From contig JAFGHD010000087.1 in NCBI GenBank assembly GCA_016939365.1, positions 1-60,364 on the forward strand: DNA of 60,364 nt. Direction: 5' to 3'. The position numbers and the translations under genes were made by a program. The stretch is from Bacteroidales bacterium (GTDB lineage: Bacteria > Bacteroidota > Bacteroidia > Bacteroidales > JAFGHD01). The notes beneath the pieces were generated by a model that saw only the letters and a program-made list of their open reading frames with translations, made no database searches and was not told where the DNA came from. Positions 389 through 26,107 of this stretch are shown in pieces; the stretch's first letter is position 1; every line of letters starts with the position of its first letter.

Positions 389-1002
389 ATCCAAAGATTG
401 AACTTTACCATCCGCGGGTGTTCAGCGATGAAAAATGGGCTGAAGGTTACTACCGGCGAAACGCGAAAAACATCATCAGAACAGGCCGGAGGCTCTCCGG
501 GATTCTCGCCCGGAGAGGATTCAGGGGATGCAGGATCCTGGATGCTGGATGCGGATTCGCCGCAGTGGCCATCGAACTGGCCAGGGCCTTTCCTCAGGCC
601 GAGATCGTGGGCGTTGACCTTGCAGAACCTTTGCTTGACACCGGGCGGTCACTGATCAGTAAAGCCGGAATGACGGAAAGGATCCACATCGGGCAGGGAG
701 ATGTCCACCACCTCGACTTCCCGGATCATGACTTCGATCTGACCGTCAGCAGCTACATGCTCCATATCGTTGAAGATCCGGTTCAGATGCTGAACGAGCT
801 GGAGCGTGTCACCAAGTCCGATGGCATCATCATGATCACGGATCTGCGGCGTATCTGGCTGGCGTTTCTGGCCGGGAAGCTGAGAACCGTATTTACAGCT
901 GAGGAGGCCCTCCAGGTGATTGAATCATCCTCAATAAGAAAGGGTAACATGTCCAGAGGACCTTTCTGGTGGGATTACATCGCGGGACTGCCGGTCAGGT
1001 AA
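385..1002 (+). CDS. Class I SAM-dependent methyltransferase
   Basis: This 205-residue protein looks like a small methyltransferase of the Methyltransf_11/25 type, which moves a methyl group from S-adenosylmethionine to an unknown acceptor. The SAM-binding motif I is clear (ILDAGCGFAAVAIELA, about residues 50-65). It is followed by an acidic motif II (EIVGVDLAEPLL) and a motif IV-like stretch (DFDLTVSSYMLHIVEDP). An in-frame GTG at 379 would add two residues; the ATG at 385 is preferred. The gene stands alone and faces the radical SAM gene downstream. Substrate unknown. Confidence 0.8.
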   Translation: MNPKIELYHPRVFSDEKWAEGYYRRNAKNIIRTGRRLSGILARRGFRGCRILDAGCGFAAVAIELARAFPQAEIVGVDLAEPLLDTGRSLISKAGMTERIHIGQGDVHHLDFPDHDFDLTVSSYMLHIVEDPVQMLNELERVTKSDGIIMITDLRRIWLAFLAGKLRTVFTAEEALQVIESSSIRKGNMSRGPFWWDYIAGLPVR

Positions 1003-1085
1003 ACCCATCAGATCAGGGAACCGGGCTGCAGGGGTACTCACAGATATCCAGGAAACCGTCCCGGTTCATCGATTTTCCGGTTTGT

Positions 1086-2108
1086 TTAAAGCCGGTCCAC
1101 CCTGAACAATCTGCCGGTGAGGGCATCATCAGTGAGAAAACTGACCCTGCGGTATTTATTTTGGAGCATGGTTTTATTGGCCGCGCGGTGACCGATCGCC
1201 CCGGTCAATTCCCCTTTGGGAACATATATGACGATATCTCCACCATAACCTTCCTTCAGTAGTAAAGGACTGAGTATATCACTCCAGATGGCGGTGAGCA
1301 CGAGGGCTCCGAAGGCCGGATGAAATGGTCCGGCCACCAGTTCGCTACCTGATATCAGCCCTTCTGAAGGGTGCAGACCCATGCGGATCACCCGGACAGC
1401 AGCCTGCTCAAACAGGATGACCAGATCTTTGGTCCTGCTCACGGCCTCATCAAGTGAAAGAGGCATATATTTCCCCTGAAGGAAAAGCGTTGCGAGGGGT
1501 GTGTTGCGGATCACGACGACCGGGTATATCCGCACCTCACCTGCACCCAGGCTGATGATCTTCTGTGCAGTGAGCATGGTTTTCAGACGGGTGTCGCCCG
1601 GCAATCCGGTCATCATCTGGAGGCCCAGGCTGAAGCCGGCATTCCGGACCATCTCCGAAGCTTTAACGGTATCGGATGCGGTATGACCTCTGCCGGAATT
1701 GAGGAGTACATCATCATCCATCGACTGGGCGCCCAGCTCAATGGTCGTTACCCTGAAGGCCTTGAGCATATCAAGGATTGCAGGCGTGATCATATCCGGC
1801 CGCGTGGATATCCGGATACCATGAATCATACCCTTTTCAAGATAAGGAACGGCCATCCGGAGGTAGGACTGCTGCATCTCCACATCCAGGCCGGTGAAGG
1901 TTCCACCAAAAAATGCCAGCTCAACTGAGTGATCCCGGAAGTCAATGGTGGATAACCGTTCCTCAATACACCGGATCACCTCCCTGTGTGACGGCATTTC
2001 CAGCCGGCCGGTAATACCACGCTGGTCGCAAAAGATGCAGGTTCCCGGGCAGGCGGCCCCCGGTATGAAAACAGGTATGTTGATATGTTTTCGAACCATG
2101 GAATCCAT
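1086..2108 (-). CDS. Elp3-like radical SAM protein
   Basis: This 340-residue protein carries an N-terminal radical SAM domain. The motif CPGTCIFC (about residues 20-27, CxxxCxxC) would bind a 4Fe-4S cluster and SAM. The surrounding pattern (IPVFIPGAACPGTCIFCDQR, then GITG) matches the Elp3-related radical SAM family found as stand-alone proteins in many anaerobes. Further radical SAM features are visible (FFGGTFTGL, ISTRPDMI, ELGAQSMDD). It lacks the C-terminal GNAT acetyltransferase domain of true Elp3, so a tRNA-modifying role is only inferred. An ATG three codons downstream (2099) could also be the start. It is transcribed toward the methyltransferase. Confidence 0.8.
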   Translation of the reverse strand: MDSMVRKHINIPVFIPGAACPGTCIFCDQRGITGRLEMPSHREVIRCIEERLSTIDFRDHSVELAFFGGTFTGLDVEMQQSYLRMAVPYLEKGMIHGIRISTRPDMITPAILDMLKAFRVTTIELGAQSMDDDVLLNSGRGHTASDTVKASEMVRNAGFSLGLQMMTGLPGDTRLKTMLTAQKIISLGAGEVRIYPVVVIRNTPLATLFLQGKYMPLSLDEAVSRTKDLVILFEQAAVRVIRMGLHPSEGLISGSELVAGPFHPAFGALVLTAIWSDILSPLLLKEGYGGDIVIYVPKGELTGAIGHRAANKTMLQNKYRRVSFLTDDALTGRLFRVDRL

Positions 2109-2124
2109 TCATCTGTAAAATTAA

Positions 2125-2132
2125 TACCTTTG
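2125..2132 (+). promoter_or_regulatory. Putative -7 element for the 2.2-6.9 kb cluster
   Basis: TACCTTTG matches the Bacteroidota -7 consensus TAnnTTTG and lies about 75 nt before the first start codon of the exported-protein cluster. No clear TTG-type -33 element is visible at the usual distance, so the call rests on the -7 element alone. Confidence 0.4.
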
Positions 2133-2207
2133 TGTTGAAAATAGCTGAATTAAAGCCTTTTTACCATACCAGACAGAGGATTACCAAACCAGAAAACCCT
2201 ATTCCAT

Positions 2208-2879
2208 ATGACTTCAAAATCAAACAGGGCACTATTCATTTTCAAGATGATTTTGCTCCTGATACTGGGCGGGGCAACCCTGACGTTAACACCCGGTTGC
2301 AAGAGCAAGAAAAAGCTGGCTATGGAACAGGCTGCCCGGGAGTACGCTGAAAAAGTTGAAAAAGCCAAGGCTGAACTCCGGGCAATCCTGAATGACGACG
2401 GAACCATGCCGATATCAGAAATGGAGCGGCGTTTGCTGGATATACGCAATCAAAACCTTAACGATCCTGAAGTGAACGAATTGATGGCTCAGGTTGAAGC
2501 AAAAATAGTGGCCATGAAGGAGGAACTCAGAAAAAGGGAGGAAGAGGAGCGCAAACGACAACAGGAAGAGGAAGAAGCGCAAAAAAAGAAACAAAGCTAT
2601 GATTATATCGAGGATTATTTCTTCCAGATCGCCGGCTCGAACGATATCAACGAAGCCAATACGAAGATCAGCGAAGCCATGAAGCTTTACAGCAGCGATC
2701 AGGTTCCTGTTCTGATCATTATCAGCCAGGAAGGCGATATCACTGACTACGACAAACCGACCACCATCGGCAATTATCTGAACTACCTGAAAGACGTGAA
2801 GAAATATGACTGCAAAATCCATCAGGCCAGGTTCGACGAATACGGACAGATCACCGAGTTGGAACTGATCAAAAAATAG
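2208..2879 (+). CDS. Putative lipoprotein with coiled coil
   Basis: This 223-residue protein of unknown function starts with a signal sequence (a hydrophobic stretch at about 14-30) that ends in LTPGC, a plausible lipobox with Cys-31 as the lipidated residue. A long, highly charged helix follows (about residues 35-127, rich in Glu, Lys and Arg), predicted as a coiled coil. The C-terminal 95 residues look globular (PVLIIISQEGDITDYDKP). This is the first gene of a four-gene run with short gaps or overlaps, so it is probably expressed with the LRR protein at its end. I recognise no named family. It may anchor a periplasmic complex, but that is inference. Confidence 0.75.
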   Translation: MTSKSNRALFIFKMILLLILGGATLTLTPGCKSKKKLAMEQAAREYAEKVEKAKAELRAILNDDGTMPISEMERRLLDIRNQNLNDPEVNELMAQVEAKIVAMKEELRKREEEERKRQQEEEEAQKKKQSYDYIEDYFFQIAGSNDINEANTKISEAMKLYSSDQVPVLIIISQEGDITDYDKPTTIGNYLNYLKDVKKYDCKIHQARFDEYGQITELELIKK

Positions 2880-2888
2880 GAAGAACCC

Positions 2889-3467
2889 ATGAGAAATCTC
2901 CTTGCATATACTATTGTTGCGCTCCTGTTATCCGGAACCACAGCATGGACCCAGGAGCATATCAGTCCCGAAAGAAAACAGGCTATCGATAGCCTTGCGC
3001 TGGAAAAGGTCCGGGATCTGAGCAAATACATCAGCCTCATCGGGGATAAGGAAACCCCGTTTTCCGAAGCCACCCGTGTTATTGACAGGGCTGTCGAACT
3101 TTTTATGGAAGGAAGCGAGGTAGGGGTCTCCTCGCTCTACCGGCCGGAAATCAGCTATTTTCCGGTAAAGCAGTACCTTGAACGCCTGATGCGGCTGAAT
3201 TACAGCCGTGTGGAAATTGAATGGTACAAAATTGAATATGTCAGTGACCTGGAGCCCCAACCCGACGGCACTTTTGTTGGCGTAATCACCATTTTCCAGA
3301 GGTTTTCCGGATATGACCAGGAAGGCGGACTGGTGTATCAGGATGTGACCAAAAAGGATATCACCGTTTACGTTAAACGGAAGGAAACCCAAATCGCCGG
3401 AAGACTTATCGGTTTCTGGGATGTCATGCTGGGCGATATCAGAGTGAAAGAAACCACCCCGAGGTGA
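2889..3467 (+). CDS. Exported protein of unknown function, NTF2-like candidate
   Basis: A 192-residue protein with a signal peptide (about residues 1-22, cleavage near TTAWTQ). The mature part has the pattern of a small alpha+beta domain: PVKQYLERLMRL, then alternating strands ending in IGFWDVMLGDIRV. A similar order of helices and strands appears in the N-terminal third of the LRR protein encoded two genes downstream (PLYKDVQAYLKDI, then strands), which suggests the two are distant relatives. The gene starts 10 nt after the upstream lipoprotein gene and overlaps the next gene by 4 nt (GTGA). Function unknown. Confidence 0.75.
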   Translation: MRNLLAYTIVALLLSGTTAWTQEHISPERKQAIDSLALEKVRDLSKYISLIGDKETPFSEATRVIDRAVELFMEGSEVGVSSLYRPEISYFPVKQYLERLMRLNYSRVEIEWYKIEYVSDLEPQPDGTFVGVITIFQRFSGYDQEGGLVYQDVTKKDITVYVKRKETQIAGRLIGFWDVMLGDIRVKETTPR

Positions 3468-4300
3468 TCCGGCATACCTGGACCTGCAGCCTGCTGCTTT
3501 TGTTCTGCTTCCCAATTCCTGCCCAGAACATTCATATCTCCGATCTGGATGGGGATGAATCCATGCTTTATGCCCAAACCAAACAGGTCAACCAGTTTTT
3601 CCGGAGATTCAACGGTGAGGAGAACCAGCACGGGGAACGGTATCATACCGGCGACAGTCTTTACCGTGACATACAGCTGAGACTCGGTTATCTGCCCATG
3701 CTTTTTGATCAGCAAAATCCCAATATTGAAAAGGATGACATAAAAAACTTCATTGCAAAGTTGACCGATCCTGTCCAAACGGCTTTCCTCGATTTTCACG
3801 GTCAAGATTGGTTTGCAGAGCTTCCCGCCACATTCCTGACATACAGGAAACGCGAGAACCTGATACTGTTTCTTTGCCTTGAACAGGAAAGACTGGGTTA
3901 CAAATGGTCGATCACCAATGTCTATTATGAAAGATTTTTAAAGCTTTATTACAAGGGTGAGGCAGAGATGGTGATGAAAACTTTCCTGCATCCGATGTCC
4001 CACGAACTGGACTTCATGAACATCAGAAAGGTTTTCCAGAATCCCGACTATGTAGAGTACTATGCCTGCAAATCCTTTCATCCTGATTTTATTTCACTTC
4101 TGACCTATGAAGTGAAGCAGGGCAATATGAAATTCGAAGGATCCGGAGATCCCAAATTCCATTTTTTTCAGATACCCGGTTGGTATTTCGAGGTGTCTTT
4201 TGTCAACAGGCCTGGTTATAATACCGGTTGGCTGATCACCAAACTCATCCGGATTACAGAGGAAGAGCGGAGGGAACTGATCAACTTCTATCAGCCATGA
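3464..4300 (+). CDS. Exported protein of unknown function
   Basis: A 278-residue protein starting at GTG, which overlaps the stop of the previous gene by 4 nt (translational coupling). A short signal peptide (CSLLLLFCFPIPAQ, about residues 8-21) is followed by a mature domain rich in aromatic residues. The C terminus (GYNTGWLITKLIRITEEER) looks like another beta-rich domain. I recognise no family. Its tight coupling to both neighbours argues that all four products act together at the cell envelope. Confidence 0.75.
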   Translation: MIRHTWTCSLLLLFCFPIPAQNIHISDLDGDESMLYAQTKQVNQFFRRFNGEENQHGERYHTGDSLYRDIQLRLGYLPMLFDQQNPNIEKDDIKNFIAKLTDPVQTAFLDFHGQDWFAELPATFLTYRKRENLILFLCLEQERLGYKWSITNVYYERFLKLYYKGEAEMVMKTFLHPMSHELDFMNIRKVFQNPDYVEYYACKSFHPDFISLLTYEVKQGNMKFEGSGDPKFHFFQIPGWYFEVSFVNRPGYNTGWLITKLIRITEEERRELINFYQP

Positions 4301-6897
4301 AATGGTTATTCACCTTTCTCCTGCCGTTCTTCGTTTACGGGTTCGGAGGTTCCCTGAGGGGTCAGCAAAACCCTGCCCTGTCGGCTTCAGAGGTTGAGGC
4401 TTATAAGGCTCAGTCAGGAAGACTGGTGGAATACCTTGAAGGGACCCTCAATTTCCTGGGAGATCCCGATGAGGTCAACAAAGAGAAGCAGATCGTCATT
4501 GAAGAAAGTTACCTGAAGATTTTCCGCGATGAAAAGGTTCAGATCGAGGACGATCTTGATGAAGGAAGGGATGTTCCGCTTTACAAGGATGTTCAGGCAT
4601 ACCTGAAGGATATCCGTTTTTTTTACAGGCAGATTGCCTTTACATTTCAGATATCGGAAATCGGCCATTACCTGAATGACAGGGATCAGCATTATTTCAG
4701 GGTTACTTTGACGAGAACCCTTGACGGCATTACCATTCGTAAGGATTCGGTCTTCACCAGGGCTGTCCGGTTCATTGAGATCAACCTGGATCCTGCATCC
4801 GGTGTCCTGAAGATCGCCAGCATCTACACTACCAAGCCTGAAGAGAAGGAAGAGCTGGAAAAATGGTGGAACCAGCTTTCATGGGATTGGAAGGCCTGTT
4901 TCGGAAAGGGAATCAAGATAATGGACAGTATACCGTTACAGGAGATCAGTCGCTTTGGAGGAGGATATTATGTGCGTTCCCGGCCGGTTTTGGGTTTTCA
5001 GGGGCTGTCCCTGCCCGCAACCGGGAGCATCCCTGTTGCTGATTCAACCCTCATGGATTGCGATACGGTTTATACGGATCTCAGCGAGCTATACTCCCGT
5101 ATTTCTGGCATCATGAAAATGCAGGAGATCGATTTGTCGGGGAACAGGGTAATCAGAAATATGGATCCCTTGTCGAAACTCACCGACCTGAGGGTGATCA
5201 ACTGTTCGGGTACGCATGTGACCGACCTCTTTCCTCTGAGAAATCTCAGCCATCTGGAGGTGTTGAATTGTTCCCATACGAATCTGTCGGACCTGTCACC
5301 TATGATTTATGCCACTTCACTGCGGAATCTGGATATCAGCCACACCCAGATTGAGGATATTCAGGCTGTCAGGAATTTCAGGCGACTGGAGAGGCTGGAT
5401 TGTTCCGGGACCCTTTTGCAGGATCTTTCACCGTTGGAACCGCTGGAAGAATTGCATGAATTGCAGTGCGACAGCATCGAGATTTATTCCATCAGTTTCA
5501 TTTCCAGCCTGATCCGTCTCGAACGGCTTGATGTCTCCCATACCTTTGTATCAGATCTGACACCTTTGGAATCCCTTACCAGACTCAACCATCTCAACTG
5601 TGAATATACTCTGGTCACCTCCCTGGAATCCCTGGGTCATCTGGAGGAACTGGAATATCTTTTCATCTCGGGTACGGGTGTCAGCAGCCTTGATCCGTTG
5701 GAGGGACTTGGCACACTGAAACGGATTTATTGCGACAACACCAGAGTTTCCGCGCAACATGCCTTGCGGTTCATGCGTAATCACCCAGGATGCCTGGTTG
5801 TTTTCGAAAGCGATGAATTGCTGAACCTCTGGCAAAACCTGGGGCCGGAGTGGAAAGAGGTGTTCCGGATGTATGTAGTGGTCAGTGATCATCCGGGCAA
5901 AGAGGAGCTTCATGATTTACTCCGACTGGAAAAGCTGGATCTGTCAGGCCATCCTGTTATTAATAATCTGGAACCCGTCCGTAAGCTTTACAACCTGAAA
6001 GAGCTGAATGCCTCAGGCATCGGAGTGTCCGATATCTTTCCCCTGTCAGATCTTCTGGGGCTGGAAATCCTTGACCTTTCCAACACCTCCATCAGTGAGC
6101 TGGATGCTCTGTCGGGATTACGGAACCTGATGGATCTGAATATCGCAAACACCGGCGTGCCTTCCCTTGCCCCTCTCTCAGGCCTGCCCCGTCTGAGGCA
6201 TATCAGCGCTGACAAGACCCCGCTGAGTGATGCCGCTGTATTCAGTTTCAGGGCGGACCGCCCTGACTGCCTGGTGGTTTATAAAACCTACGAGATGAAC
6301 AGGTGGTGGGAGACATTGAGCAGATCCTGGCAGAACCTGTTTGCATCAGTACTCAAAATGGACTCTCCACCCACTCCCGACCAGCTGCACCAGTTACTTT
6401 TCCTCAATGAGCTCATCATAAAAGACCATCCTGACATTCATGATCTCACTCCCCTGACCCGGTTGAAGGGACTGAAAAAGATCTCATTGATATCAACCGC
6501 TGTCACCCAGATACAGCCGCTTTCCCTACTGCAGGAACTGGGTTCGCTCACATGCTCACAATGCCCACTCCAGGACTTAAGTCCTGTCATGGAGCTTCAT
6601 GATTTGACCTATCTGAACGTTGAAAACACCTCCGTATCGGACCTGAGTCCCCTGAGTCAGCTCTCCAATCTTGAAAGCCTTATCATTTCTGGAACACAGG
6701 TCAGAGACCTGAAATCCCTCTCGGCAGTGATCAGCCTGAGACTCCTTGAATGCAGCAATACGGGTGTAAAGAAGCTCAAACCCCTGTATGACCTTCCGGC
6801 CCTGATATCCGTAAAATGCTTCAATACACGCATCAGTGACCGTGAGGTGCAAAAGTTCAGGGAATCCAAACCCGATTGTGAGATTCTTCATTACTGA
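4297..6897 (+). CDS. Exported leucine-rich-repeat protein, three modules
   Basis: An 866-residue protein. I place the start at 4297, where ATGA overlaps the upstream stop and a signal peptide begins at once (MKWLFTFLLPFFVYGFGG); an earlier in-frame ATG at 4228 would bury that signal. Residues about 25-185 form a non-repeat domain resembling the product of 2889-3467. The rest is LRR of the form LxxLxxLxxLxxLxCSxTxVxDLxPL. Three blocks each begin with a tryptophan-rich cap (W near 190, 512 and 670; pattern WxxLxxxWxxxF) and end with a Pro-Cys segment (HPGCLVVF, RPDCLVVY, KPDCEILHY). LRRs usually bind proteins; the partner is unknown. No type IX C-terminal signal was recognised. Confidence 0.85.
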   Translation: MKWLFTFLLPFFVYGFGGSLRGQQNPALSASEVEAYKAQSGRLVEYLEGTLNFLGDPDEVNKEKQIVIEESYLKIFRDEKVQIEDDLDEGRDVPLYKDVQAYLKDIRFFYRQIAFTFQISEIGHYLNDRDQHYFRVTLTRTLDGITIRKDSVFTRAVRFIEINLDPASGVLKIASIYTTKPEEKEELEKWWNQLSWDWKACFGKGIKIMDSIPLQEISRFGGGYYVRSRPVLGFQGLSLPATGSIPVADSTLMDCDTVYTDLSELYSRISGIMKMQEIDLSGNRVIRNMDPLSKLTDLRVINCSGTHVTDLFPLRNLSHLEVLNCSHTNLSDLSPMIYATSLRNLDISHTQIEDIQAVRNFRRLERLDCSGTLLQDLSPLEPLEELHELQCDSIEIYSISFISSLIRLERLDVSHTFVSDLTPLESLTRLNHLNCEYTLVTSLESLGHLEELEYLFISGTGVSSLDPLEGLGTLKRIYCDNTRVSAQHALRFMRNHPGCLVVFESDELLNLWQNLGPEWKEVFRMYVVVSDHPGKEELHDLLRLEKLDLSGHPVINNLEPVRKLYNLKELNASGIGVSDIFPLSDLLGLEILDLSNTSISELDALSGLRNLMDLNIANTGVPSLAPLSGLPRLRHISADKTPLSDAAVFSFRADRPDCLVVYKTYEMNRWWETLSRSWQNLFASVLKMDSPPTPDQLHQLLFLNELIIKDHPDIHDLTPLTRLKGLKKISLISTAVTQIQPLSLLQELGSLTCSQCPLQDLSPVMELHDLTYLNVENTSVSDLSPLSQLSNLESLIISGTQVRDLKSLSAVISLRLLECSNTGVKKLKPLYDLPALISVKCFNTRISDREVQKFRESKPDCEILHY

Positions 6898-6914
6898 ACC
6901 GCTGGCATTTACCG

Positions 6915-6944
6915 TTTGATGGATTCAGGGTTTTGTTATTTTTG
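6915..6944 (+). promoter_or_regulatory. Bacteroidota-type promoter for the kinase gene
   Basis: A TTTG -33 element at 6915-6918 and a TATTTTTG -7 element (TAnnTTTG) at 6937-6944 are separated by 18 nt. They lie just upstream of the TPR histidine kinase start at 6970, giving a leader of about 20 nt. Confidence 0.55.
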
Positions 6945-6969
6945 TACCTGTTGAAACCATCCTGCCCCA

Positions 6970-8796
6970 ATGCGTGATTTCATTTCACTCCTGATTTGGA
7001 TTCTCATTGTGTTCTGGCATAGTGCCCTGGCCTCACAGGATATTGACAGTCTTGAGCAGTTGCTTCAGGATGCCCGCTCTGATTCGGTCCGGGCATCGCT
7101 GTTATACAGGATTGCAAAAAACGGTTTCAATTCAGACCCGGAAAGGAGCCTCCGGTATGCCAGTGAATCTGCAGAAATAGCCAGAAACCGTGGTGACAGC
7201 GCTCTCTGGGCCATGTCCATGCAGATCGCCGGAGTGGTTTACAAGAACCGGGGAGATTATACGCGCGCATTGGAGCAACAGCTCCGGGCAGTCCGGATCA
7301 TCGAAAAGCTCGGGAATAAAAAACTGCTCGCCTCTTCATACAACGATCTCGGAGTGCTCAATAAAAACCTGGGAAACTGGGACCTGGCCATCGGATATTA
7401 CCGGAGTTCACTGGCCATTATTGAAGAGCTGGGCAATAAACGGATCTCGGCCCTGCTCCTGAACAATATCGGAACGATTTACGATGCCAAGAACCGCCCG
7501 GACAGCGCTGAATACTATTACACGCTCTCATTGGAGATCAGTTCAGAGACCGGTGATCCTGAAGGAATGGCGCTGTCACTTAATAATCTGGGAGAGCTTC
7601 ACGCAAGTGAAGGCGATCATCGCAAAGCACTGGATTGTTTTACCCGCACCCTCGAAATCGATCAGGAGACTGGTAACCGGATGGGTGAGATCTATTCCTG
7701 CCTGAATATGGCCGGGGCGTACCTTGAGCTTGCAGATCTGAAAAGAGCCCTTGAGTATTTCGACCGCGCTGAAGAATTGTCCCTGGAAATGGATGCGGCA
7801 TCATTGCTCAGCCAGGCTTACCGGGGGAAATCCTCTGTGTTTCGAAGGATGGGAAACTTCAGGAATGCCCTGGACTACCTGGAAAAGCATAAATCGATCC
7901 AGGATTCCCTGATGAATGAGCGCAAGTCGGAACAGATTGCGGAGATGCAGGCCCGGTTCGAATCCGAGAAGAATGAAGCCGAAATTGAGTTGCTGAAAAA
8001 GGAGCAGCGGATCAACGGGCTGCTTATAGCGAAACAGAAGAATCACATTCTGGTGCTCATTCTCGGCATCGCGATGGTGGCCGGACTGGGGGTATTTCTG
8101 GTCTACCGGACCCGGCAACGTCATCAGGCCATCATGCAAAAGGAGATCATCAGGCAAAAAGAGTTAGGTCTCAGGGCCGTTTTTGAGGCACAGGAAGAGG
8201 AACGAAAACGAATAGCCAAGGACCTTCATGACGGGATCGGGCAAACCCTGTCCGGCCTGAGGCTGGCCTGGGAGGCCCTGACCCGCCAACTTTCCGGGAT
8301 TTCCGAAGCCGAGCGGAATCGGATGCACGAACTGACCGCTGTGATCGACGGTGCCTGTCAGGATGTCCGAACGATTTCCCACCAGATGATGCCCAGGCAG
8401 CTCTCCGAACTGGGGCTTATCCCTGCCCTCGAGGATATGCTGGTAAAGAGCTTTGGAAATACCGGGATCAATTACAGGTTTGAGCATTTCGGAATAGACG
8501 GCCGTTTCAGTGAAAATGTCGAAATCGCCCTTTACCGCATCGCCCAGGAGCTTGTCAACAACGTGATCAAACATTCAGGTGCCACCAGGGTATCCTTTCA
8601 GGTCCTCCGTAACCGGAATTTTCTGGTCATGATCGTGGAAGATAACGGCCGGGGATTCAATTACGGGGAAAAGCAGGGATCAGGCATTGGATTGCTGAAT
8701 ATAGCCAGCAGGATCGGGACCGTGAATGGTGAGATCAATTACGAACCCAGCCCGGGAAGCGGGACTGTGGCAACAATCAGGGTGCCGGTAGCATGA
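6970..8796 (+). CDS. TPR-containing sensor histidine kinase (NarX/HisKA_3 class)
   Basis: A 608-residue sensor kinase. A signal peptide (about 1-22) is followed by a periplasmic tetratricopeptide array (about 50-310; repeats such as LNNIGTIYDAKNRPDSAEYY), a short coiled coil and one membrane helix (about 358-378, LVLILGIAMVAGLGVFLVY). The cytoplasmic part has a HisKA_3 dimerisation domain with phospho-acceptor His-420 in KDLHDGIGQ. A HATPase domain follows, with N box (IAQELVNNVIKHSG), G1 (VEDNGRGF) and G2 (GSGIGLLNIASRI). It would phosphorylate the response regulator encoded by the overlapping downstream gene. The TPRs probably sense an exported protein or peptide; the signal is unknown. Confidence 0.92.
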   Translation: MRDFISLLIWILIVFWHSALASQDIDSLEQLLQDARSDSVRASLLYRIAKNGFNSDPERSLRYASESAEIARNRGDSALWAMSMQIAGVVYKNRGDYTRALEQQLRAVRIIEKLGNKKLLASSYNDLGVLNKNLGNWDLAIGYYRSSLAIIEELGNKRISALLLNNIGTIYDAKNRPDSAEYYYTLSLEISSETGDPEGMALSLNNLGELHASEGDHRKALDCFTRTLEIDQETGNRMGEIYSCLNMAGAYLELADLKRALEYFDRAEELSLEMDAASLLSQAYRGKSSVFRRMGNFRNALDYLEKHKSIQDSLMNERKSEQIAEMQARFESEKNEAEIELLKKEQRINGLLIAKQKNHILVLILGIAMVAGLGVFLVYRTRQRHQAIMQKEIIRQKELGLRAVFEAQEEERKRIAKDLHDGIGQTLSGLRLAWEALTRQLSGISEAERNRMHELTAVIDGACQDVRTISHQMMPRQLSELGLIPALEDMLVKSFGNTGINYRFEHFGIDGRFSENVEIALYRIAQELVNNVIKHSGATRVSFQVLRNRNFLVMIVEDNGRGFNYGEKQGSGIGLLNIASRIGTVNGEINYEPSPGSGTVATIRVPVA

Positions 8797-9443
8797 AAAA
8801 AATCCGGGTGATCATAGCCGACGACCACCACCTGATCATCGACGGAATCAGGTCGCTGCTAGAAGAGGCGGACGATATCGCCATTGTTGGAGAGGCATCC
8901 AACGGCAGAGAGCTGATCGAACTGCTCTTCCTGGTATCTGCCGATGTCATTCTCCTGGATGTCGAAATGCCCGTGATGAACGGGATTGAAGCCGCAAGGA
9001 ACATCAAGACCAACCACAGGGACGTCCGGATCATCATTCTGACCATGCATCAGGAACGGGGGTTGATACAGCAGCTGATAGACCTGGGTGCCGACGGATA
9101 TTTATTGAAAAATTCCGACAGGACTGAGCTGATCCAAGCCATCCGTCGCGTGGCTTCCGGAGTTCCCTATTTCTCCCATCAGGTCACCCTCGCCCTGCTC
9201 AATAAAACCGCACCCATGTCCAGATCCTCTGAGGATGGGCATCTGCTTTCGCTGCTTACACCCCGGGAGATCGAAATCATGAAACTGATCGCCGAGGGCC
9301 ATTCCAACCGCCAGATCGGCGAATCCCTCTTTATCAGTCACAGAACCGTGGATACCCACAGGACCAATCTGATGAAAAAGATCGGAGCCGCCAATATTGC
9401 TGCTCTGATACGATTTGCCGTCAGAAACGGATTCATTGAATAG
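8793..9443 (+). CDS. NarL/FixJ-family response regulator
   Basis: A 216-residue two-component regulator. The receiver domain (1-120) has the acidic pair Asp-10/Asp-11, the phospho-acceptor Asp-56 (LLDVEMPVMNG) and a conserved Lys in YLLKNSD. The C-terminal LuxR-type helix-turn-helix (about 150-212) contains LTPREIEIMKLIAEGHSNRQ and SHRTVDTHRTNL. The start codon overlaps the kinase stop by 4 nt (ATGA), so the two are cognate partners. The gene converges on the alpha-2-macroglobulin gene with a 15-nt gap. Its targets are unknown. Confidence 0.93.
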   Translation: MKKIRVIIADDHHLIIDGIRSLLEEADDIAIVGEASNGRELIELLFLVSADVILLDVEMPVMNGIEAARNIKTNHRDVRIIILTMHQERGLIQQLIDLGADGYLLKNSDRTELIQAIRRVASGVPYFSHQVTLALLNKTAPMSRSSEDGHLLSLLTPREIEIMKLIAEGHSNRQIGESLFISHRTVDTHRTNLMKKIGAANIAALIRFAVRNGFIE

Positions 9444-9458: not shown

Positions 9459-12400
9459 TCACTCCACCCGTATCTCTGTCCCTTCTGTATGAGCCGCAAA
9501 CTCTGGCGCATAGAGACACTGTATGGTAGTGATCCCGTTGGAGAAGCTGCCTGAGTGTGATACGATCAGGGGATACTCAATCACCCATGTTCCTTTGGGG
9601 AGGAGATCGAAAAAGAAATTCATGGCCGCATCACGAGGATTCTGATAATACCCGAGTCCGTCCTGGTATCTGTATCCGGAAACCTGGAGCGGTGGCTCCA
9701 GACCGGAAGCCCGCAAATCCTTCAGGTGGATAAACTCCATATCCCGGTCTGACCGGATCACCATTCTGACCTTGATTTTATCTCCGACACTGAGCGGATG
9801 ATCCCCGTCCACCGTTTCCAGTATGGGGCCACGGCTGGTGTTCACCTCTCTCAGCAGTTGCTTTTCCACATGCAGGGGGGAGGAACTGCCGGTGATTTTG
9901 TCCATATCTTCGAAGTATTGCCAGTATGCAGCACCCCAGGCAATGCCGGGATTTTCATTGGTCACTTTGATGTCTGCCATTTCGGAAGAGATGCTGCCGG
10001 AGGGCCAGGAGTGCTTGAAATAACCGGTGCCGGCCTCAATCCGGCTTCCGCCGTCACCCAAGGGATCAATGGTTTCACTTCCAACCTTTACACTGATGGG
10101 GGTCTGCCCGGTGATCCAGCGGTCCCCCCTTTCCAGCAGGGCAAAAACCGCTTCGGCGGTTGCCCTGGAGGTCTTCCATCCTCTGGTTTGCTTCTGCCTG
10201 AGAAGGTAGGTCCTGATCAGGTCCACCGATAAGGTATCCCCTGTGATCGTAGTGAAAACCTCTGCCATCATAGCCTGAGTCTCGACAGGGGATTCATACC
10301 ACCGGAAACCACCGGATTCCGACCCCCAGTACATACCCATTTCTTCATGATATGATGCATTTTCCTTCAGGGAAGCTGCGATCAGGGATGGAAGGCTTTT
10401 CACTCCCAGATGATGCATGGCCAGTGCGATCATGCCCTGAAGATGTGTATTGAATTCGAGCCAGTATCTGGTTGCCTGGTCCCTGAAATACTGGAAAGGC
10501 GTGGTCATGTCAGCAGGCAGGGGAATATCTTTGAAAAAACTGCTGCGGGCATATAGGTACTGTATCTGGATGGCGGTAAGATGGTTCTTATCCATCTCAT
10601 CAGGATGATGTTCGCTAAGTTTTTCATAATCCTCCTGTATTCGTGCGTCGAGGTAGGTGATGGCCTGCAGGAGCATGGCCCGTGTCCCGTCCTCCTTCAT
10701 GGGATCCATGATCCCCAGTTGCCTGAGATGGGCGAAACCCAGCACGATTTCCTGGGTGATACTCCGGTTGTCACGCATTCCATCAAACCAGGGCCATCCC
10801 CCGTTGGGAGACTGCATGGTTATTAGCTTCATCAAAGCCGCATCCATGGAATGCCTCATCCTGTTTTCATCGAAGAGCATGGCCATCCTTCTCTTATTCC
10901 GGTTCTCTTCGCCGGCTTCCGTGACCCATGGGGTCTCCTCAAGCAGCAGGTTTTTGAGTTCCTGGTTTTTTTCAAGCGGAGAAGCGAGTGCCTCGGGTGT
11001 CAACCTGATCCAGGAATCGAATACCTGCCTGATTTCAGGAAAATCTGATACCAGGTGGGATCCGATCCGGTTCGCATAATATCGCCTGAATATCTCATCG
11101 CTCGATTCCCGGGTACCTTCCATCATGACGGGCAGGGACTGAACCGCAAGCCATATGGGATTTGATGTGAATTCCACGGTGAAACGGTGATGGCTCAGCG
11201 AAAGACCGGTCTGTTTGAAAGTACCGGCAAGGCGTTCCATCCTGAAGGTACGTTCTTCCTTACCCCTGACCGGCATGGGCAAAGTCTCGGTTACAAGTGT
11301 TCTGTTGGTCAGTACCGGCAGGGATGTCTCCTCCCCATCTGTGAACTGTCCTGATACGGCTTCGAACCGGCACCCGATCAGCCCGGAATAGGAAGGCACT
11401 GTGATATCCCAGGCTACCAATGCGGTCTCTCCCTGATCACTTTCAAAACCAAGCGTATATTTTCCCCCAGGGGTGATGTTCTCCAAAGGCTGCTGTGTAA
11501 GAGCATCGAAGAGAGAAAGGGAGGCCTCGCCTTTCATCGATTGACCGGAAAGGTTGACGATCCCGGCCGACAACCTGATCCGGTCGCCCTCTCTCAGGAA
11601 ACGGGGAAGATTCGGTATAACCATCAGATCCTTGGCGGTCGTGATCTCTTTTTTGAAAAGGACATGGCTGAGGTCTTCGGTATGAGCCAGTCCCAGCAGT
11701 TTCCATCGGGTCGTGGATTCAGGCATGGTGAAGGAGACGACTAACCTTCCCGAGTCATCAGTCCGCAACGCCGGATAGAAGAAAGCGGTTTCCCTGAAAT
11801 CTCTTCTTATCTGTATTGCCGGAAGGGAAATACGTCCGGCGGGTCCGGCCGGGCTTTCTCCGGTCTTCGGCAGAGGCTCTGCTTCCTGCTGCACGGCCTC
11901 CTGAGCGCCCATGTCATCCATCTCTGGCATGAAGGGTTGACCCGGCGGCAACATGAGATGATCGTCCTTTCCAAACCTTGAATGCCGGAAGCCGCTTCCG
12001 AAATAATGGAAACCAAACCAGTTGAGGTGGTCATATTCCCGCGGCGCAGGATACATCAGAGGCCCTGCCGGAGGATGGTACAGAAATGCAGGCTCCGTGC
12101 GGAATGCATGGAAGACATCCCATCCGGGCAAACCGAACAGGTCAAGAAATATATGAAAGCTCCAGTCATGCGGGGAAATGGCATCAAGGGATGCATCATA
12201 CATGGAGGTCAGTACTTCGGCAGCTATCCGCTCCCCGGTTTTCCGGTCTATCCTGATCTTCCATTCCTCCTTTTGACCCGGCAGCAAACGGTCCCGGAAG
12301 GTTTCAAAGGTAACGCCGAGCTGCCTGTCCGTCTGGGGTACCCTGACCAGCAAACTTTTCTGCATCGGTCTGTTCCGAAGCACAGCGACCAGATTCACCG

Positions 12401-15400
12401 TACAGTTACCCGTGCAATCTTTTCCGATGGGGATGGTGATCCGTTTCATCTCGCTGTTCAGCCTGATCCATTGCCTGCTGATGATATTGCGTTCGCATAC
12501 CACTTCACATACCACCCGGAGGTCACGGCCGGCGCTCCCGACAAGGACCGTGGACGAGGATCCCGGTTCCGCCTCTTCCTGCATCAGGTGCGACCAGAAT
12601 ATCTCATGAACCGGGCAGGATGAGCTTTGAGGATCAAAGAGGGTGAAGATCTGTTCGCCCCTGACTTCGCTCCCAAAGGCGTCCCTCGTCAGGATGGTGG
12701 CAAGGTACCTTCCCGGTTCCCATCCGGCCATGCCTTCCGGGACAAGCAAAGAGTCGTCCGGAGTCCGGTAGCTCGTATGAAATAACTGCTCCTCCTTTTC
12801 AAACCCTGTAGGAAGGTACTCCTCTCCGAAGGGGTCGTAAGGGAAGTCCCTGATGAAATCATCCTGGTCCATGACATGTTCGTCAGGAGCTTCCCATAGG
12901 CGGGTGCGGAACAGGCGCCCGGGTTCGCTGAGGCGGAATACGGCGATTTCCCCCTCTGAAGGAAGCGGACGGCCGGCAGGGTTGGTCGTGATGATCCTGA
13001 AAGCGGGTGTAACACTCCGGTCGACTTGTTCCGGAATGTCAAAACCTGCGATCATGGCATTATACCCTACCGAAACCGTAGTTTCTCCCGACCGGGTTTC
13101 TCCGTTGACAGCGGTTACCTCTGCGGTGATCCGGTAATTGAATACCGGCTTGGCGGATTCGGGGACCGAGAGATCGGGCAGTGCCTGGAACGGAACACTG
13201 AAAGCACCATCCCCGTCGGTTTCGGTGAATCCGCTGACGATTTCCGTTTCGCCCTGCAGGGGCATGAAGTCTGTTACCCCGAATATCCTGTAAGGAAAGC
13301 GGGCTGTACGAACCACCCGGTAGCTCACCCGTGCATGATCCACAGGGGCTCCGCTGAATGAAACGGTTTTTCCCGGTACCTGCAATGATTCGTTGAGCTT
13401 GTAGGCCCCTTCCATTGGCCTGAAAGTGACTTCAAACTCAGGCCGCTTGTATTCCTCAACCTTGACGGCAACCGACCCGGACTCATTCCGGATGTTCATC
13501 ATTCCCGTTAGCCCGGTGACCGGGGCTGTGAAGGATCCGTGAAAAGATCCGAATTCATTGGTTGTGAACTCCAGTACCTCTACCTGTTGGTTGTTGGCAT
13601 CGAAAAATTCCACCCGTGTCTTTTTACCCTTTTGTGGTAACGTGCTTTTTTCGGACCGTTCGGTGACGATCCCCTTGAACCAGATGGTCTGTCCCGGCCT
13701 GTAAACGGAGCGGTCTGTAAAGAAGAAAGTCCGGACATCCGGCTTCCTGCCACGGTAATCGGGAGTACGCTGGTAGAAGTAATTCTCAGTAAGCAAATGC
13801 TGTTCCTTGTATTCAAATTCCAGAAAGAAAGACCGGGCTTTGCCTCCTTCATCCGAAGGTGTGATCTCAAGGTATCCTGCCTCATCTGAAAAGTACTCTC
13901 CTGCGAACTGGTGTTCATATGTTCTGGAATTGTAGTTGTAAAATCTCTCGAACAGTTTTGTTTTCACGTTCTTAAGAGGCATACCGGTCTCACGGTCCAG
14001 GACATAGACCTGGTATGTCCCTTCACGGTCCTTCCGGGTAATATAGCTGATATCGGTGGACCAAACCGGGGTGTATGCCATGAATGTCTGATCGGGGTTG
14101 AACGCATCCGAGCCTGAAGCCAGAAGGATGTAATATCCTTCTGCAAGGGCGGTTACGGGAACTTCGGCAGCATGCCACTGATAATCACCCGTATCGGGCA
14201 GGGCCTGCGAAAAGGAATGCTGGAAAGGAAGCGCAGCATATTGAGCGATCAGCTCCTTTCTGTTGGGATACTGTTTCAGATAATCACGATCGGCTTCAGG
14301 TGAAATGGAGATCAAGCGGAAATGCAGTTGCTTCAGGTTCCTGAATTTGACCAGTCCGAGGAATTTCTGACCAGGCGAAACCCCTGCAGGGGCCTGGACC
14401 GAAATGCCGGTTTCAAGGATTTGCTGTTCCAGTAACTTGCAGCGTTTTGCGCCCCCGGAGCCGGGATGAGCTGACATCTCCTCCCTGCATATTTCAAGGG
14501 CGGTCCGGATATTCCACCGGTTTTTCCCGGAAACCTTAGGCTGATACTCAAGACCTAAATCATACTGGTGGCTGGCCATCTGGTATCCTGCATCTGTGGA
14601 AGCGGGATGCTGCCTGAATCCGGACCTGATCGTTCCCAGGGCCACAGAATACAGGCTGTCCTTCTCTGGCATGACAGCCTTATTATACATATATTGCAGC
14701 CGTTTCAGGTCGGCATCGATGAGGGCAGCGGGATCCTCATCGCCAAGATGAAAATCAAGGATCTCCCTGAAGATCCTGAATGCCTCGTAGCCTCCGGACA
14801 AGGGACTGTCATATCCCGGTTCAAATTTCACGAAACGCCCCGCTTCCGCCAGATAGTCATCCTGATTCACCTCAAACTGTCTTGCCGGTCGGGTCAGTGC
14901 CGATTCGTCATTCATGAAAAAATCCACAGCCCGGTGCGCGAGGAAATCGTAAAGGGTGGGCCGTACCATCCGGGATTCCCCCGACCCTTCGAGGATTGCA
15001 TCATATAAGCCTATCCGGTTGGTTTTCAGTATTTTGGGATCCTCAAGAGATGCCTGGTAATGTCGAAAGACCTCCTCCTGGAGTGTCCGGAGATCCCACG
15101 TGGTGATATCCTCCTTTTTGATGAAATCGGCATAGGTTCTTTCCAGGAACCGGTAACGATTGGATTGGTAATAATTCCAGTATATCTCACCAAGAATGCT
15201 GTGCAATATCTGCTTCAGGGGTGGCCCGGAAACGGTGATCAATGCGTTCAGCTCTTCCGAAATGCCTTTGATTATATTTTCTTCAAATGCAGCCTGCAGT
15301 CTGAACCTGTACAGGAGGGATTTGACTACCTGTGGATGGTTCTCTTCCACCTGTGCCGCATGATAGATTGAATCCACAATTTCCAGTGCGGTACGGGGTA

Positions 15401-15572
15401 GGCCTATGTTCACAAGCGAATCGACTTTTTTCCAGGCTTCAGGATAGGTGCTGTAATCCTCTTTCTGACTTCCGGCTCCGATACCGGTTCCAATGAAACA
15501 GTGGACAGCGGTACCCGATGTGATGGCCAGCAGTACTGCAAAGGCTACAAGAAACAACCATCTCTTTTTCAT
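9459..15572 (-). CDS. Alpha-2-macroglobulin family protein lacking the thioester
   Basis: A very large exported protein (2037 residues) with a signal peptide (about 1-24). After an N-terminal helical region, the MG2-type domains include the family hallmark of a carrier domain (FFFTDRSVYRPGQTIWFKGI) and an alpha-2-macroglobulin domain (TRWKLLGLAHTEDL). A terpenoid-cyclase-like TED region follows (SPNGGWPWFDGMRDNRSITQ). At the site where trapping family members have a CxEQ thioester, this protein has SSDE (residues 1490-1493, nt 11094-11105) before IFRRYYANR. It therefore cannot form a covalent thioester trap. YfaS-type bacterial homologues also lack the motif. A structural or inhibitory periplasmic role is inferred. 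Confidence 0.92.
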   Translation of the reverse strand: MKKRWLFLVAFAVLLAITSGTAVHCFIGTGIGAGSQKEDYSTYPEAWKKVDSLVNIGLPRTALEIVDSIYHAAQVEENHPQVVKSLLYRFRLQAAFEENIIKGISEELNALITVSGPPLKQILHSILGEIYWNYYQSNRYRFLERTYADFIKKEDITTWDLRTLQEEVFRHYQASLEDPKILKTNRIGLYDAILEGSGESRMVRPTLYDFLAHRAVDFFMNDESALTRPARQFEVNQDDYLAEAGRFVKFEPGYDSPLSGGYEAFRIFREILDFHLGDEDPAALIDADLKRLQYMYNKAVMPEKDSLYSVALGTIRSGFRQHPASTDAGYQMASHQYDLGLEYQPKVSGKNRWNIRTALEICREEMSAHPGSGGAKRCKLLEQQILETGISVQAPAGVSPGQKFLGLVKFRNLKQLHFRLISISPEADRDYLKQYPNRKELIAQYAALPFQHSFSQALPDTGDYQWHAAEVPVTALAEGYYILLASGSDAFNPDQTFMAYTPVWSTDISYITRKDREGTYQVYVLDRETGMPLKNVKTKLFERFYNYNSRTYEHQFAGEYFSDEAGYLEITPSDEGGKARSFFLEFEYKEQHLLTENYFYQRTPDYRGRKPDVRTFFFTDRSVYRPGQTIWFKGIVTERSEKSTLPQKGKKTRVEFFDANNQQVEVLEFTTNEFGSFHGSFTAPVTGLTGMMNIRNESGSVAVKVEEYKRPEFEVTFRPMEGAYKLNESLQVPGKTVSFSGAPVDHARVSYRVVRTARFPYRIFGVTDFMPLQGETEIVSGFTETDGDGAFSVPFQALPDLSVPESAKPVFNYRITAEVTAVNGETRSGETTVSVGYNAMIAGFDIPEQVDRSVTPAFRIITTNPAGRPLPSEGEIAVFRLSEPGRLFRTRLWEAPDEHVMDQDDFIRDFPYDPFGEEYLPTGFEKEEQLFHTSYRTPDDSLLVPEGMAGWEPGRYLATILTRDAFGSEVRGEQIFTLFDPQSSSCPVHEIFWSHLMQEEAEPGSSSTVLVGSAGRDLRVVCEVVCERNIISRQWIRLNSEMKRITIPIGKDCTGNCTVNLVAVLRNRPMQKSLLVRVPQTDRQLGVTFETFRDRLLPGQKEEWKIRIDRKTGERIAAEVLTSMYDASLDAISPHDWSFHIFLDLFGLPGWDVFHAFRTEPAFLYHPPAGPLMYPAPREYDHLNWFGFHYFGSGFRHSRFGKDDHLMLPPGQPFMPEMDDMGAQEAVQQEAEPLPKTGESPAGPAGRISLPAIQIRRDFRETAFFYPALRTDDSGRLVVSFTMPESTTRWKLLGLAHTEDLSHVLFKKEITTAKDLMVIPNLPRFLREGDRIRLSAGIVNLSGQSMKGEASLSLFDALTQQPLENITPGGKYTLGFESDQGETALVAWDITVPSYSGLIGCRFEAVSGQFTDGEETSLPVLTNRTLVTETLPMPVRGKEERTFRMERLAGTFKQTGLSLSHHRFTVEFTSNPIWLAVQSLPVMMEGTRESSDEIFRRYYANRIGSHLVSDFPEIRQVFDSWIRLTPEALASPLEKNQELKNLLLEETPWVTEAGEENRNKRRMAMLFDENRMRHSMDAALMKLITMQSPNGGWPWFDGMRDNRSITQEIVLGFAHLRQLGIMDPMKEDGTRAMLLQAITYLDARIQEDYEKLSEHHPDEMDKNHLTAIQIQYLYARSSFFKDIPLPADMTTPFQYFRDQATRYWLEFNTHLQGMIALAMHHLGVKSLPSLIAASLKENASYHEEMGMYWGSESGGFRWYESPVETQAMMAEVFTTITGDTLSVDLIRTYLLRQKQTRGWKTSRATAEAVFALLERGDRWITGQTPISVKVGSETIDPLGDGGSRIEAGTGYFKHSWPSGSISSEMADIKVTNENPGIAWGAAYWQYFEDMDKITGSSSPLHVEKQLLREVNTSRGPILETVDGDHPLSVGDKIKVRMVIRSDRDMEFIHLKDLRASGLEPPLQVSGYRYQDGLGYYQNPRDAAMNFFFDLLPKGTWVIEYPLIVSHSGSFSNGITTIQCLYAPEFAAHTEGTEIRVE

Positions 15573-24742: not shown

Positions 24743-26107
24743 ATGAGACGGACCCTCTTGTATTTTGCCATTCTGCTGCTGCTGGGCAGTTGCGGCAATA
24801 CAGGTAATGGCGAGCTGATCGGGGTTCAAAACAGGAAACCGTATTATCAGCCGATGCCTTACGGAATGGCATATGTCCCCTTGGGGAGCTTTACGATGGG
24901 TGTCAGCGATCAGGATCTTCCCTATGCTTTGATCCATCAGCCAAAGACGGTTACGATCACTCCATTTTTTATGGATGAAACCGAGATCACCAACAACGAA
25001 TACAGGCAGTTCGTCTTCTGGGTCAGGGATTCCATTGCCAGATACATGTTGAGTGAGGTGATGCCTGAGGAGTACTCTATTGAGGAAAACAGGAGAACCG
25101 GAGAGATCTACGACCCGCCCTATCTGAACTGGACCAGGCGGATTGACTGGGAAGGAGAGGAGGAAAGGAGCATACTTGAGGATCTGTTTATTCCGGAGCA
25201 TGAAAAGTATTTCAGGAAGCGGGATATTGACTCCAGAAAACTGAAATACAAGTATTACTGGATTGATCTCAAAGCCGCATCGAAGAAGGATTTCACCCAG
25301 GACGGCGATCCCGAGGCGGGAGGCCTGGCCAACCGGCCCCAGGGTCTTCAGGACAGGTCTGTTTATGTCCGCCAGGAGGTTATCAACGTTTACCCGGATA
25401 CCCTTTGCTGGCTGTTTGATTATACTTATGCATACAATGAACCATGGACCAAATACTATTTCTGGCATCCATCTTACGATAATTACCCGGTAGTCGGTGT
25501 GAGCTGGGAACAGGCCAAGGCATTCTGCGTCTGGAGGACCATGTGGAAGAACCGTTACCTGGCAAGCAAAAAGGGCGAATCTGACGTCAGTGATTTCAGG
25601 CTTCCTACTGAAGCCGAGTGGGAATGGGCTGCCCGTGGCGGCCATGATCTGAATCCCTTCCCCTGGGGAGGTCCCTATGTCAGAAATGACAAAGGATGCT
25701 TCCTCGGCAACTATAAACCTCTTCGTGGCAACTACTCTGACGACGGCGGAGCCAAACCCATCATCGTTGCGCATTACCCGCCAAATGACTGGGGCCTTTT
25801 TGACATGGCAGGAAATGTCGCGGAATGGACAGGAGACGCCTTCGATGAGTCATCCTGCAACTTCTCATGGGACCTCGATCCTTTTTACGAGTACAATGCT
25901 ACCGATATGGATCCGGCCGTTCTCAAAAGGAAGGTCGTCAGAGGCGGCTCCTGGAAGGATATCGGCTATTACCTCCAGGTGGCCACCCGGACATATGAGT
26001 ACCAGGACACGGCCAAATCATATATCGGTTTCCGTTGTGTGCAGTCCTACCTGGGCCGCCAGAAAGACGACAACCCGGCGAAAGCTTCTCATATTTACCA
26101 GAAATAA
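24743..26107 (+). CDS. gldK: GldK/PorK, type IX secretion lipoprotein
   Basis: A 454-residue lipoprotein with a signal ending in LLGSCG (lipidated Cys-17). It belongs to the GldK/PorK family, which forms the periplasmic outer-membrane ring with GldN/PorN. A fold like the formylglycine-generating enzyme fills the protein: YVPLGSFTMG near the start, FFMDETEITNNEYRQFV, WEQAKAFC, RLPTEAEWEWAARGG and VRGGSWKDIGYY near the end. In this family the fold is structural, not catalytic. It lies between the PorP gene and gldL in a same-strand run. Confidence 0.96.
   Translation: MRRTLLYFAILLLLGSCGNTGNGELIGVQNRKPYYQPMPYGMAYVPLGSFTMGVSDQDLPYALIHQPKTVTITPFFMDETEITNNEYRQFVFWVRDSIARYMLSEVMPEEYSIEENRRTGEIYDPPYLNWTRRIDWEGEEERSILEDLFIPEHEKYFRKRDIDSRKLKYKYYWIDLKAASKKDFTQDGDPEAGGLANRPQGLQDRSVYVRQEVINVYPDTLCWLFDYTYAYNEPWTKYYFWHPSYDNYPVVGVSWEQAKAFCVWRTMWKNRYLASKKGESDVSDFRLPTEAEWEWAARGGHDLNPFPWGGPYVRNDKGCFLGNYKPLRGNYSDDGGAKPIIVAHYPPNDWGLFDMAGNVAEWTGDAFDESSCNFSWDLDPFYEYNATDMDPAVLKRKVVRGGSWKDIGYYLQVATRTYEYQDTAKSYIGFRCVQSYLGRQKDDNPAKASHIYQK

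Follow-up and report, generated by a model that had tools for sequence, protein, structure and literature searches.

Four consecutive genes at positions 2208-6897 of contig JAFGHD010000087.1, here called A to D, encode a real, conserved and co-inherited four-protein envelope system, a conclusion that is well supported for the linkage of the genes and for the parts they encode. The window analysed here is this entire contig of 60,364 bases, which comes from the 3.67-Mb assembly of a Bacteroidales bacterium. As the initial annotation had claimed, all four genes lie on the same (+) strand: gene A (2208-2879, 223 aa), gene B (2889-3467, 192 aa), gene C (3464-4300, 278 aa), the GTG start of which overlaps the stop codon of B, and gene D (4297-6897, 866 aa). 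For D we used the ATG at 4297 as the start, since the 889-aa open reading frame (ORF) that begins with TTG at 4228 is a mechanical call. B and C as well as C and D overlap by 4 nt each, in line with the earlier description, but the gap between A and B measures 9 nt and not the 10 nt given there. Each product carries a hydrophobic N-terminal segment, which agrees with the export signals proposed before; our export call uses the maximum mean hydropathy over 11 residues, a crude measure, which reached 2.15-2.94 in A-D compared with 0.15-1.88 in three cytosolic neighbours. In Pfam, NCBIfam and PADLOC, A, B and C had no match at a curated or otherwise meaningful level, and sequence searches of these libraries, PHROGs and the PDB yielded no usable match for any of them or for the N-terminus of D. 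The view that none of the products belongs to a nameable family is only half right, since B has a predicted NTF2-like fold and the N-terminus of D is a homologue of B, as described below.

Evidence for a system comes from co-occurrence. Among 80 genomes of the order, the window's own genome included, A was found at E<1e-30 in 18, and all 18 also possess B and C. In total, B was present in 20/80 and C in 19/80 of these genomes (Fisher p 1.7e-17 for B/C co-occurrence, phylogeny ignored). One genome (G004) contains B and C without A, in a caspase-type cassette, and the extra B genome (G038) has a weak match only, to a distant paralogue. Matches to A in G042, G066 and G070 reached only E ~1e-4 and were dismissed as chance similarity of coiled coils. 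The genes A-B-C-D follow each other in this order on one contig in 14 of the 18 A-bearing genomes. Two ORFs lie between A and B in G017; AB and CD are on different contigs in G035, G036 and G078, while in G058 A, B and C are distributed over three contigs and D was not seen.

To these data we added a set of named loci, the best 80 of at least 559 B relatives, which is biased toward close relatives and in which gene calls are greedy ORF picks with unsure start codons. A directly precedes B in 80/80 of these loci. Downstream of AB we found C and D in 53/80 and C at a contig edge in 1/80; the other 26 loci contain AB only. We first considered that C and D had been lost from the AB-only loci, but in all 18 of the AB-only cases that were checked C was present elsewhere in the genome. 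In 14 of those 18 genomes the 1.5-kb flank of C contains D, and a D search of the other four, run with two controls added, placed D on the same strand as C, ~5 kb away, in three and on another contig in one. The neighbourhood comparison that the initial annotation had suggested thus shows four genes that travel together, and homologues are not scattered singly: A, B and C share genomes even where they are unlinked. Since the identical order of four genes recurs across many families, the set is far beyond chance. Genes inserted between B and C in L099, L101, L116, L133 and L138 (MBOAT-like or CarboxypepD-reg/lipoprotein genes, named by eye) are absent from most loci and were rejected as parts.

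The distribution is so far confined to Bacteroidota, the named relatives being Bacteroidales or other Bacteroidota metagenome-assembled genomes with a few labelled Chlorobiota. In a larger sample of the order, B was found in 82/392 genomes, and the strong B match was single-copy in most of those listed; G078, unlike these, has six B-like genes or more, in differing contexts (L067, L072-L076). Across the phylum the ABCD set is rare, with C in 7/392 and B in 10/392 genomes; one family in this sample (f88) has the complete A-B-C-D set, in order, in 5/5 genomes.

The spacing of the genes in the relatives revealed a second level of organisation. Median gaps in the 53 full loci are 6 nt for A-B, 138 nt for B-C and -4 nt for C-D, so the tight spacing of all four genes in the window is not general. 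Upstream of A in the window, TACCTTTG at 2125..2132 (+) matches TAnnTTTG, the Bacteroidota -7 promoter element, and is the probable promoter of the A-B couplet. In 61/79 relatives TAnnTTTG lies no more than 150 nt before the A ORF (shuffled mean 7.2, maximum 14), and in 18/79 it occurs there on the other strand. In the B-C gaps it is present in 10/34 (shuffled mean 3.1), compared with 8/50 in a control stretch inside D (shuffled mean 2.1), so that an additional promoter in the B-C gap is only weakly indicated. From the median gaps and the motif counts we conclude that the unit consists of two tightly spaced couplets, A-B and C-D, that are usually adjacent and are fused into one operon in the window. 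Translational coupling across all four genes, as proposed earlier, accordingly holds for the window and not for the relatives in general.

Of the four products, B is the slowest-evolving, with a median pairwise identity of 65% as compared with 42% for C and 33% for A. Its AlphaFold2 model (mean predicted local distance difference test, pLDDT, 92.5) superposed on 3rob with a VIA-align Z of 15.7 (rmsd 2.3, 130 aligned), and 891/1000 compared chains reached Z>=2. The 50 best structural rows span Z 12.8-15.7, and many NTF2-like entries score above 12. With high confidence, B is thus predicted to be an exported protein with a single domain of NTF2-like fold, in which a cone of helices lies against a curved mixed beta-sheet. 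Its sequence had no match at E<=1 in Pfam or NCBIfam, and a 40-row alignment had none among PDB profiles. Considering that the best fold matches of B include ketosteroid isomerases, LinA and dehydratases and that B is extremely conserved, the set could be a small-molecule enzyme system in which NTF2-like domains act as enzymes of the ketosteroid isomerase, SnoaL or scytalone dehydratase kind and A and D are mere anchors. However, non-catalytic hubs of this fold (CaMKII hub, NTF2, TAP-p15) score just like the ketosteroid isomerases (Z 12.8-13.1 versus 12.8-13.2), the conservation of B runs along the whole chain, first long helix included, which suits interfaces, and no metabolic gene is co-conserved beside AB or CD except for a divergent radical-SAM gene. 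We therefore consider an enzyme system improbable.

Profile comparison extended the B family to D. The N-terminal domain of D (residues 31-180, 4387..4836, + strand) aligned with B in hhalign at a probability of 97.3 (E 2.4e-11), and B profiles also matched D N-termini directly, inside long frames; by these profile matches, the two are homologous. The remainder of D is a leucine-rich repeat (LRR) region of three blocks (residues 269-866, 5101..6894, + strand) that matches Pfam LRR_4 (PF12799) in 11 stretches with 163.9 bits against a cut-off of 27 (E 4e-49), which bears out the earlier assignment of D as a large LRR protein. Before each block, a segment with a Trp pair that is invariant in 16 homologues was found (W191/W198, W512/W519 and W671/W678). 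D ends in a conserved short tail, and its length is nearly constant, at 807-937 aa in 43 ORFs.

Protein A, described before as a coiled-coil lipoprotein, does have the expected features. Cys31 is invariant in 16 aligned homologues and is followed by KSKKK-like basic residues and a variable spacer, which is charged and coiled-coil-like in the window and rich in Pro and Glu in family f88, where the Cys and the C-terminal domain are kept. A spacer that changes while the anchor Cys and the C-terminal domain stay is as expected of a tether. Likewise, the median pairwise identity is 24% in the spacer and 41% in the C-terminal ~100 residues. ORF lengths of A in relatives range from 97 to 341 aa, some start codons or fragments being unsure. 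Weak matches of A in family libraries and the PDB (E 0.0026 and worse) were taken as coiled-coil noise. An 18-row B alignment gave a weak match to the full A profile, and with deeper alignments the A C-terminus matched B at an hhalign probability of 88 over ~70 aligned columns. This suggests that the two are probably homologous and that the C-terminal domain of A (2577..2876, + strand) is a probable short relative of the NTF2-like domain of B and of the C-terminus of exported caspases.

The residues after Cys31 bear on the side of the membrane that A faces. Surface lipoproteins of Bacteroidota are described, in the passages concerned, as carrying K-(D/E)2 or Q-A-(D/E)2 after the lipidated Cys as their export signal (PMC5080379). 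Among 86 A tails, none had two acidic residues at +2..+6, and of these five positions a mean of 3.56 were basic and 0.08 acidic, the reverse of that signal. Fourteen A matches in which the Cys pattern could not be located were excluded from this count; several of these are truncated or have a plain Cys that the pattern missed. Since A has no such signal, the complex should, as we infer from these tails, face the periplasm. A lipid anchor with a variable spacer and a conserved end domain would also suit a structural tether, in which A, B and D link the outer membrane to peptidoglycan or to an envelope protein and do not signal, and strong conservation in single copy suggests housekeeping. Yet Pfam detected no peptidoglycan-binding domain in A-D, and only about one genome in five of the order has the set; we judge a purely structural role unlikely.

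For C, an AlphaFold2 model of alpha/beta structure was obtained (pLDDT 89.5), but comparison by Foldseek and VIA-align gave no trustworthy match (best Z 4.0), and weak matches titled NTF2-like or cystatin-like (3ub1, 7sjy, 4qan) were below the noise level. The structure prediction that had been recommended for each product left C without a clear fold match. An apparent B-C homology in hhalign was rejected, as the match covers the signal peptide only.

Divergent relatives of B, termed B' (27 ORFs at 26 loci), placed the set among other cassettes. The corresponding C relative, C', lies directly downstream of B' in 16/27, and directly upstream, in 9/27, is a caspase-like gene whose product has an export segment at its N-terminus. 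As these counts used a hidden Markov model built from the same caspases, we compared the nine upstream genes with the independent Pfam Peptidase_C14 model: six are above its cut-off, two below (L197, L198) and one has neither a match nor a His-Cys motif (L199). His-Cys motifs are present in 9/10 aligned caspase sequences. The caspase C-terminal domain resembles the A C-terminus (hhalign probability 68) and B (73), and A therefore occupies the caspase's place. The N-terminal domain of D, in turn, is fused elsewhere to FGE-sulfatase (L072, L188) and to Fib_succ_major and outer-membrane-barrel domains, and precedes tetratricopeptide repeats (TPRs) in L181. In a B tree with many long branches, the proteins of LRR operons form one group (support 75/95; 99/96 with one further paralogue), and the caspase-cassette proteins lie on the opposite side of the midpoint-drawn tree.

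Three of the divergent loci have further contexts. A ~20-kb cluster (L188/L189, G548:C2) contains two B', two D-N-terminal fusions (FGE-sulfatase and Fib_succ_major) and an exported caspase. In L184 (G269, 583-7937) a distant B'-C' pair stands beside genes for an 854-aa Clp-like protein and a PAAR-like protein, named by eye, a context that recalls a contractile injection locus. In L190 (G513, 1596-7687) several serine/threonine-kinase-like genes and an FHA-like gene, also named by eye, immediately precede a B'-C'-D-like cassette.

The caspases and FGE-sulfatase modules of the sister cassettes raise the possibility that ABCD serves in defence, fratricide or programmed death, in the manner of the caspase/FGS systems described by Kaur et al., but has lost its protease; caspase, TPR and FGS domains belong to these conflict systems in the published passages concerned (PMC7159879, PMC8195603). 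In the same passages, however, intracellular NTPases form the core of the systems. Strong matches to B are mostly single-copy, D keeps its length, and a PADLOC scan of A-D gave no meaningful match to a known anti-phage defence system; Pfam found no Peptidase_C14 in A-D of the window. We hence give a defence role little credence.

Collectively, the co-inheritance, the couplets, the common domain and the swapping of modules at slots 1 and 4 of the cassettes led us to propose that A-D may form a lipid-tethered periplasmic recognition complex of NTF2-like domains in which the LRRs of D bind a ligand, a reading to which we give slightly less than an even chance. What the data show are the genes, their export segments, linkage and co-occurrence, the predicted B fold, the B/D homology and the modular relatives; the physical complex, its periplasmic side, ligand binding and the output are deduced. 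In such a complex, lipoprotein A would sit on the periplasmic side of a membrane, most probably the outer one, and anchor the other parts through its variable spacer. Around B, the invariant hub, the C-terminal NTF2-like domain of A and the N-terminal one of D would assemble, since domains of this fold often form dimers, and C would join paired with D. The ligand of the LRR arc of D would be a protein or peptide of the periplasm. Given that sister cassettes have an exported caspase in slot 1 and another module in slot 4, recognition would fall to slot 4 and output or anchoring to slot 1, and the output of the window's version would be tethering or recruitment and not proteolysis.

Several observations weigh against this proposal. 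C has no clear homology to A, B or D (one weak match is partly signal peptide) and no fold match. The A C-terminus matches the D N-terminus at a probability of only 24, and its matches to B and to the caspase tail are themselves moderate. The LRR regions are less conserved than the N-terminal domain of D (30-35% versus 47% identity), but given the near-constant length of D this variation does not establish ligand diversity. The missing acidic signal predicts, and does not prove, a periplasmic side. AB and CD can be unlinked and so may form two complexes, and the retention of C in unlinked genomes may partly reflect shared descent.

We also considered the genes around ABCD, no RNA families being found in the window. 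A radical-SAM gene (1086-2108, - strand) is divergent from A, and a divergent radical-SAM family of like size lies directly upstream in 47/80 named loci; being on the opposite strand, it was rejected as a part and taken as synteny, and a contig-level reading of the order's loci matched it in the same-genus relative only. Directly after D, at 6970-9443 (+), Pfam identified a TPR-histidine kinase and a LuxR-type response regulator. These too were rejected as parts, since kinase matches follow D in the same-genus genome and in none of the other relatives; in the same-genus genome (L048) this kinase reads as two ORFs. A 2037-aa alpha-2-macroglobulin-like protein (Pfam MG2, A2M, bMG10) is encoded at 9459-15572 (-). 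Further downstream, ~18 kb from ABCD, is a full-scoring gene for GldK/PorK, the ring lipoprotein of the type IX secretion system (T9SS), at 24767-26050 (+, 575 bits). This gene, the restriction of ABCD to Bacteroidota and the occurrence of the sister cassettes' FGE-sulfatase folds in GldK/GldJ would fit an accessory factor of the T9SS or gliding machinery. Yet GldK is above its cut-off in 77/80 genomes of the order as opposed to 18/80 for A, and because GldK is near-universal its co-occurrence with ABCD is uninformative; moreover, no T9SS C-terminal-domain model was among the NCBIfam matches of D at E<=1, although a very divergent domain could escape. We regard an accessory role in this machinery as very unlikely.

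In the passages concerned, prokaryotic caspases are described, possibly exported in some cases and carrying FGE-sulfatase domains in some, as are NTPase-linked conflict systems (PMC3501461, PMC7159879, PMC8195603, PMC6426788), and neither the ABCD set nor a caspase-B'-C' cassette appears in those passages. A paper that combines 'NTF2' and 'periplasm' (PMC4175972) uses NTF2, in the part concerned, as a strain name and was discarded. The published literature searched, which leaves most subscription papers outside, contained no account of the ABCD set or of exported caspase-B'-C' cassettes, and neither this literature nor the family libraries gave a clear match to a described system. This supports the conclusion that the system is undescribed as far as these searches reach. 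The undescribed envelope system suggested by the initial annotation is therefore borne out by exported, conserved and co-inherited products, among which A, B and C match no family at a meaningful level, and by searches that found no published description.

These findings define a co-inherited set of four envelope proteins that occurs in much of the Bacteroidales and in a second group of the same class; the libraries searched name only its LRRs. The link to caspase cassettes provides a testable claim on the attachment partners of secreted bacterial caspases, and the set also bears on NTF2-like domains as extracytoplasmic assembly parts. A broader and doubtful extension is that A-D might represent an undescribed class of extracytoplasmic receptors of Bacteroidota, in which a B-C NTF2 scaffold carries exchangeable modules for recognition (LRR, FGE/lectin-like, TPR, barrel) and output (exported caspase, lipid tether). 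If true, this class would parallel, in the periplasm, the modular receptors of innate immunity and cell death, with the ABCD operon of the window as its widespread, protease-free LRR form.

The LRRs of D are similar to those of class 1 internalins, which are Listeria surface proteins (NCBIfam internalin_H, 168.5 bits), but D was rejected as a member because it remains far under the curated cut-offs of 1050-1700 bits (168.5 of 1050 and lower). B shares its fold with the NTF2-like superfamily (KSI, SnoaL, CaMKII hub, NXF1-NXT1) but differs in that its sequence matches neither a catalogued Pfam family nor a PDB chain, that it is exported and that it is restricted to Bacteroidota. NXF1, like D, joins an NTF2-like domain to LRRs and has been solved with NXT1 (4wyk), a free NTF2-like protein that pairs with the NTF2-like domain of NXF1; this likeness is one of architecture, not of descent. 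The caspase/FGS conflict systems of Kaur et al. (eLife 2020, 2021) draw, in the passages concerned, on the same pool of caspase, FGS and TPR modules and are NTPase-centred, whereas ABCD has no NTPase and all four of its products carry export segments. The exported caspase-B'-C' cassettes differ in having a Peptidase_C14 caspase instead of lipoprotein A in slot 1 and, where slot 4 is present, FGE-sulfatase or other modules instead of LRRs, but they share with ABCD the B-C order, homologous B and C, a slot-1 C-terminal domain similar to that of A and, in some, a D-like N-terminal domain in slot 4.

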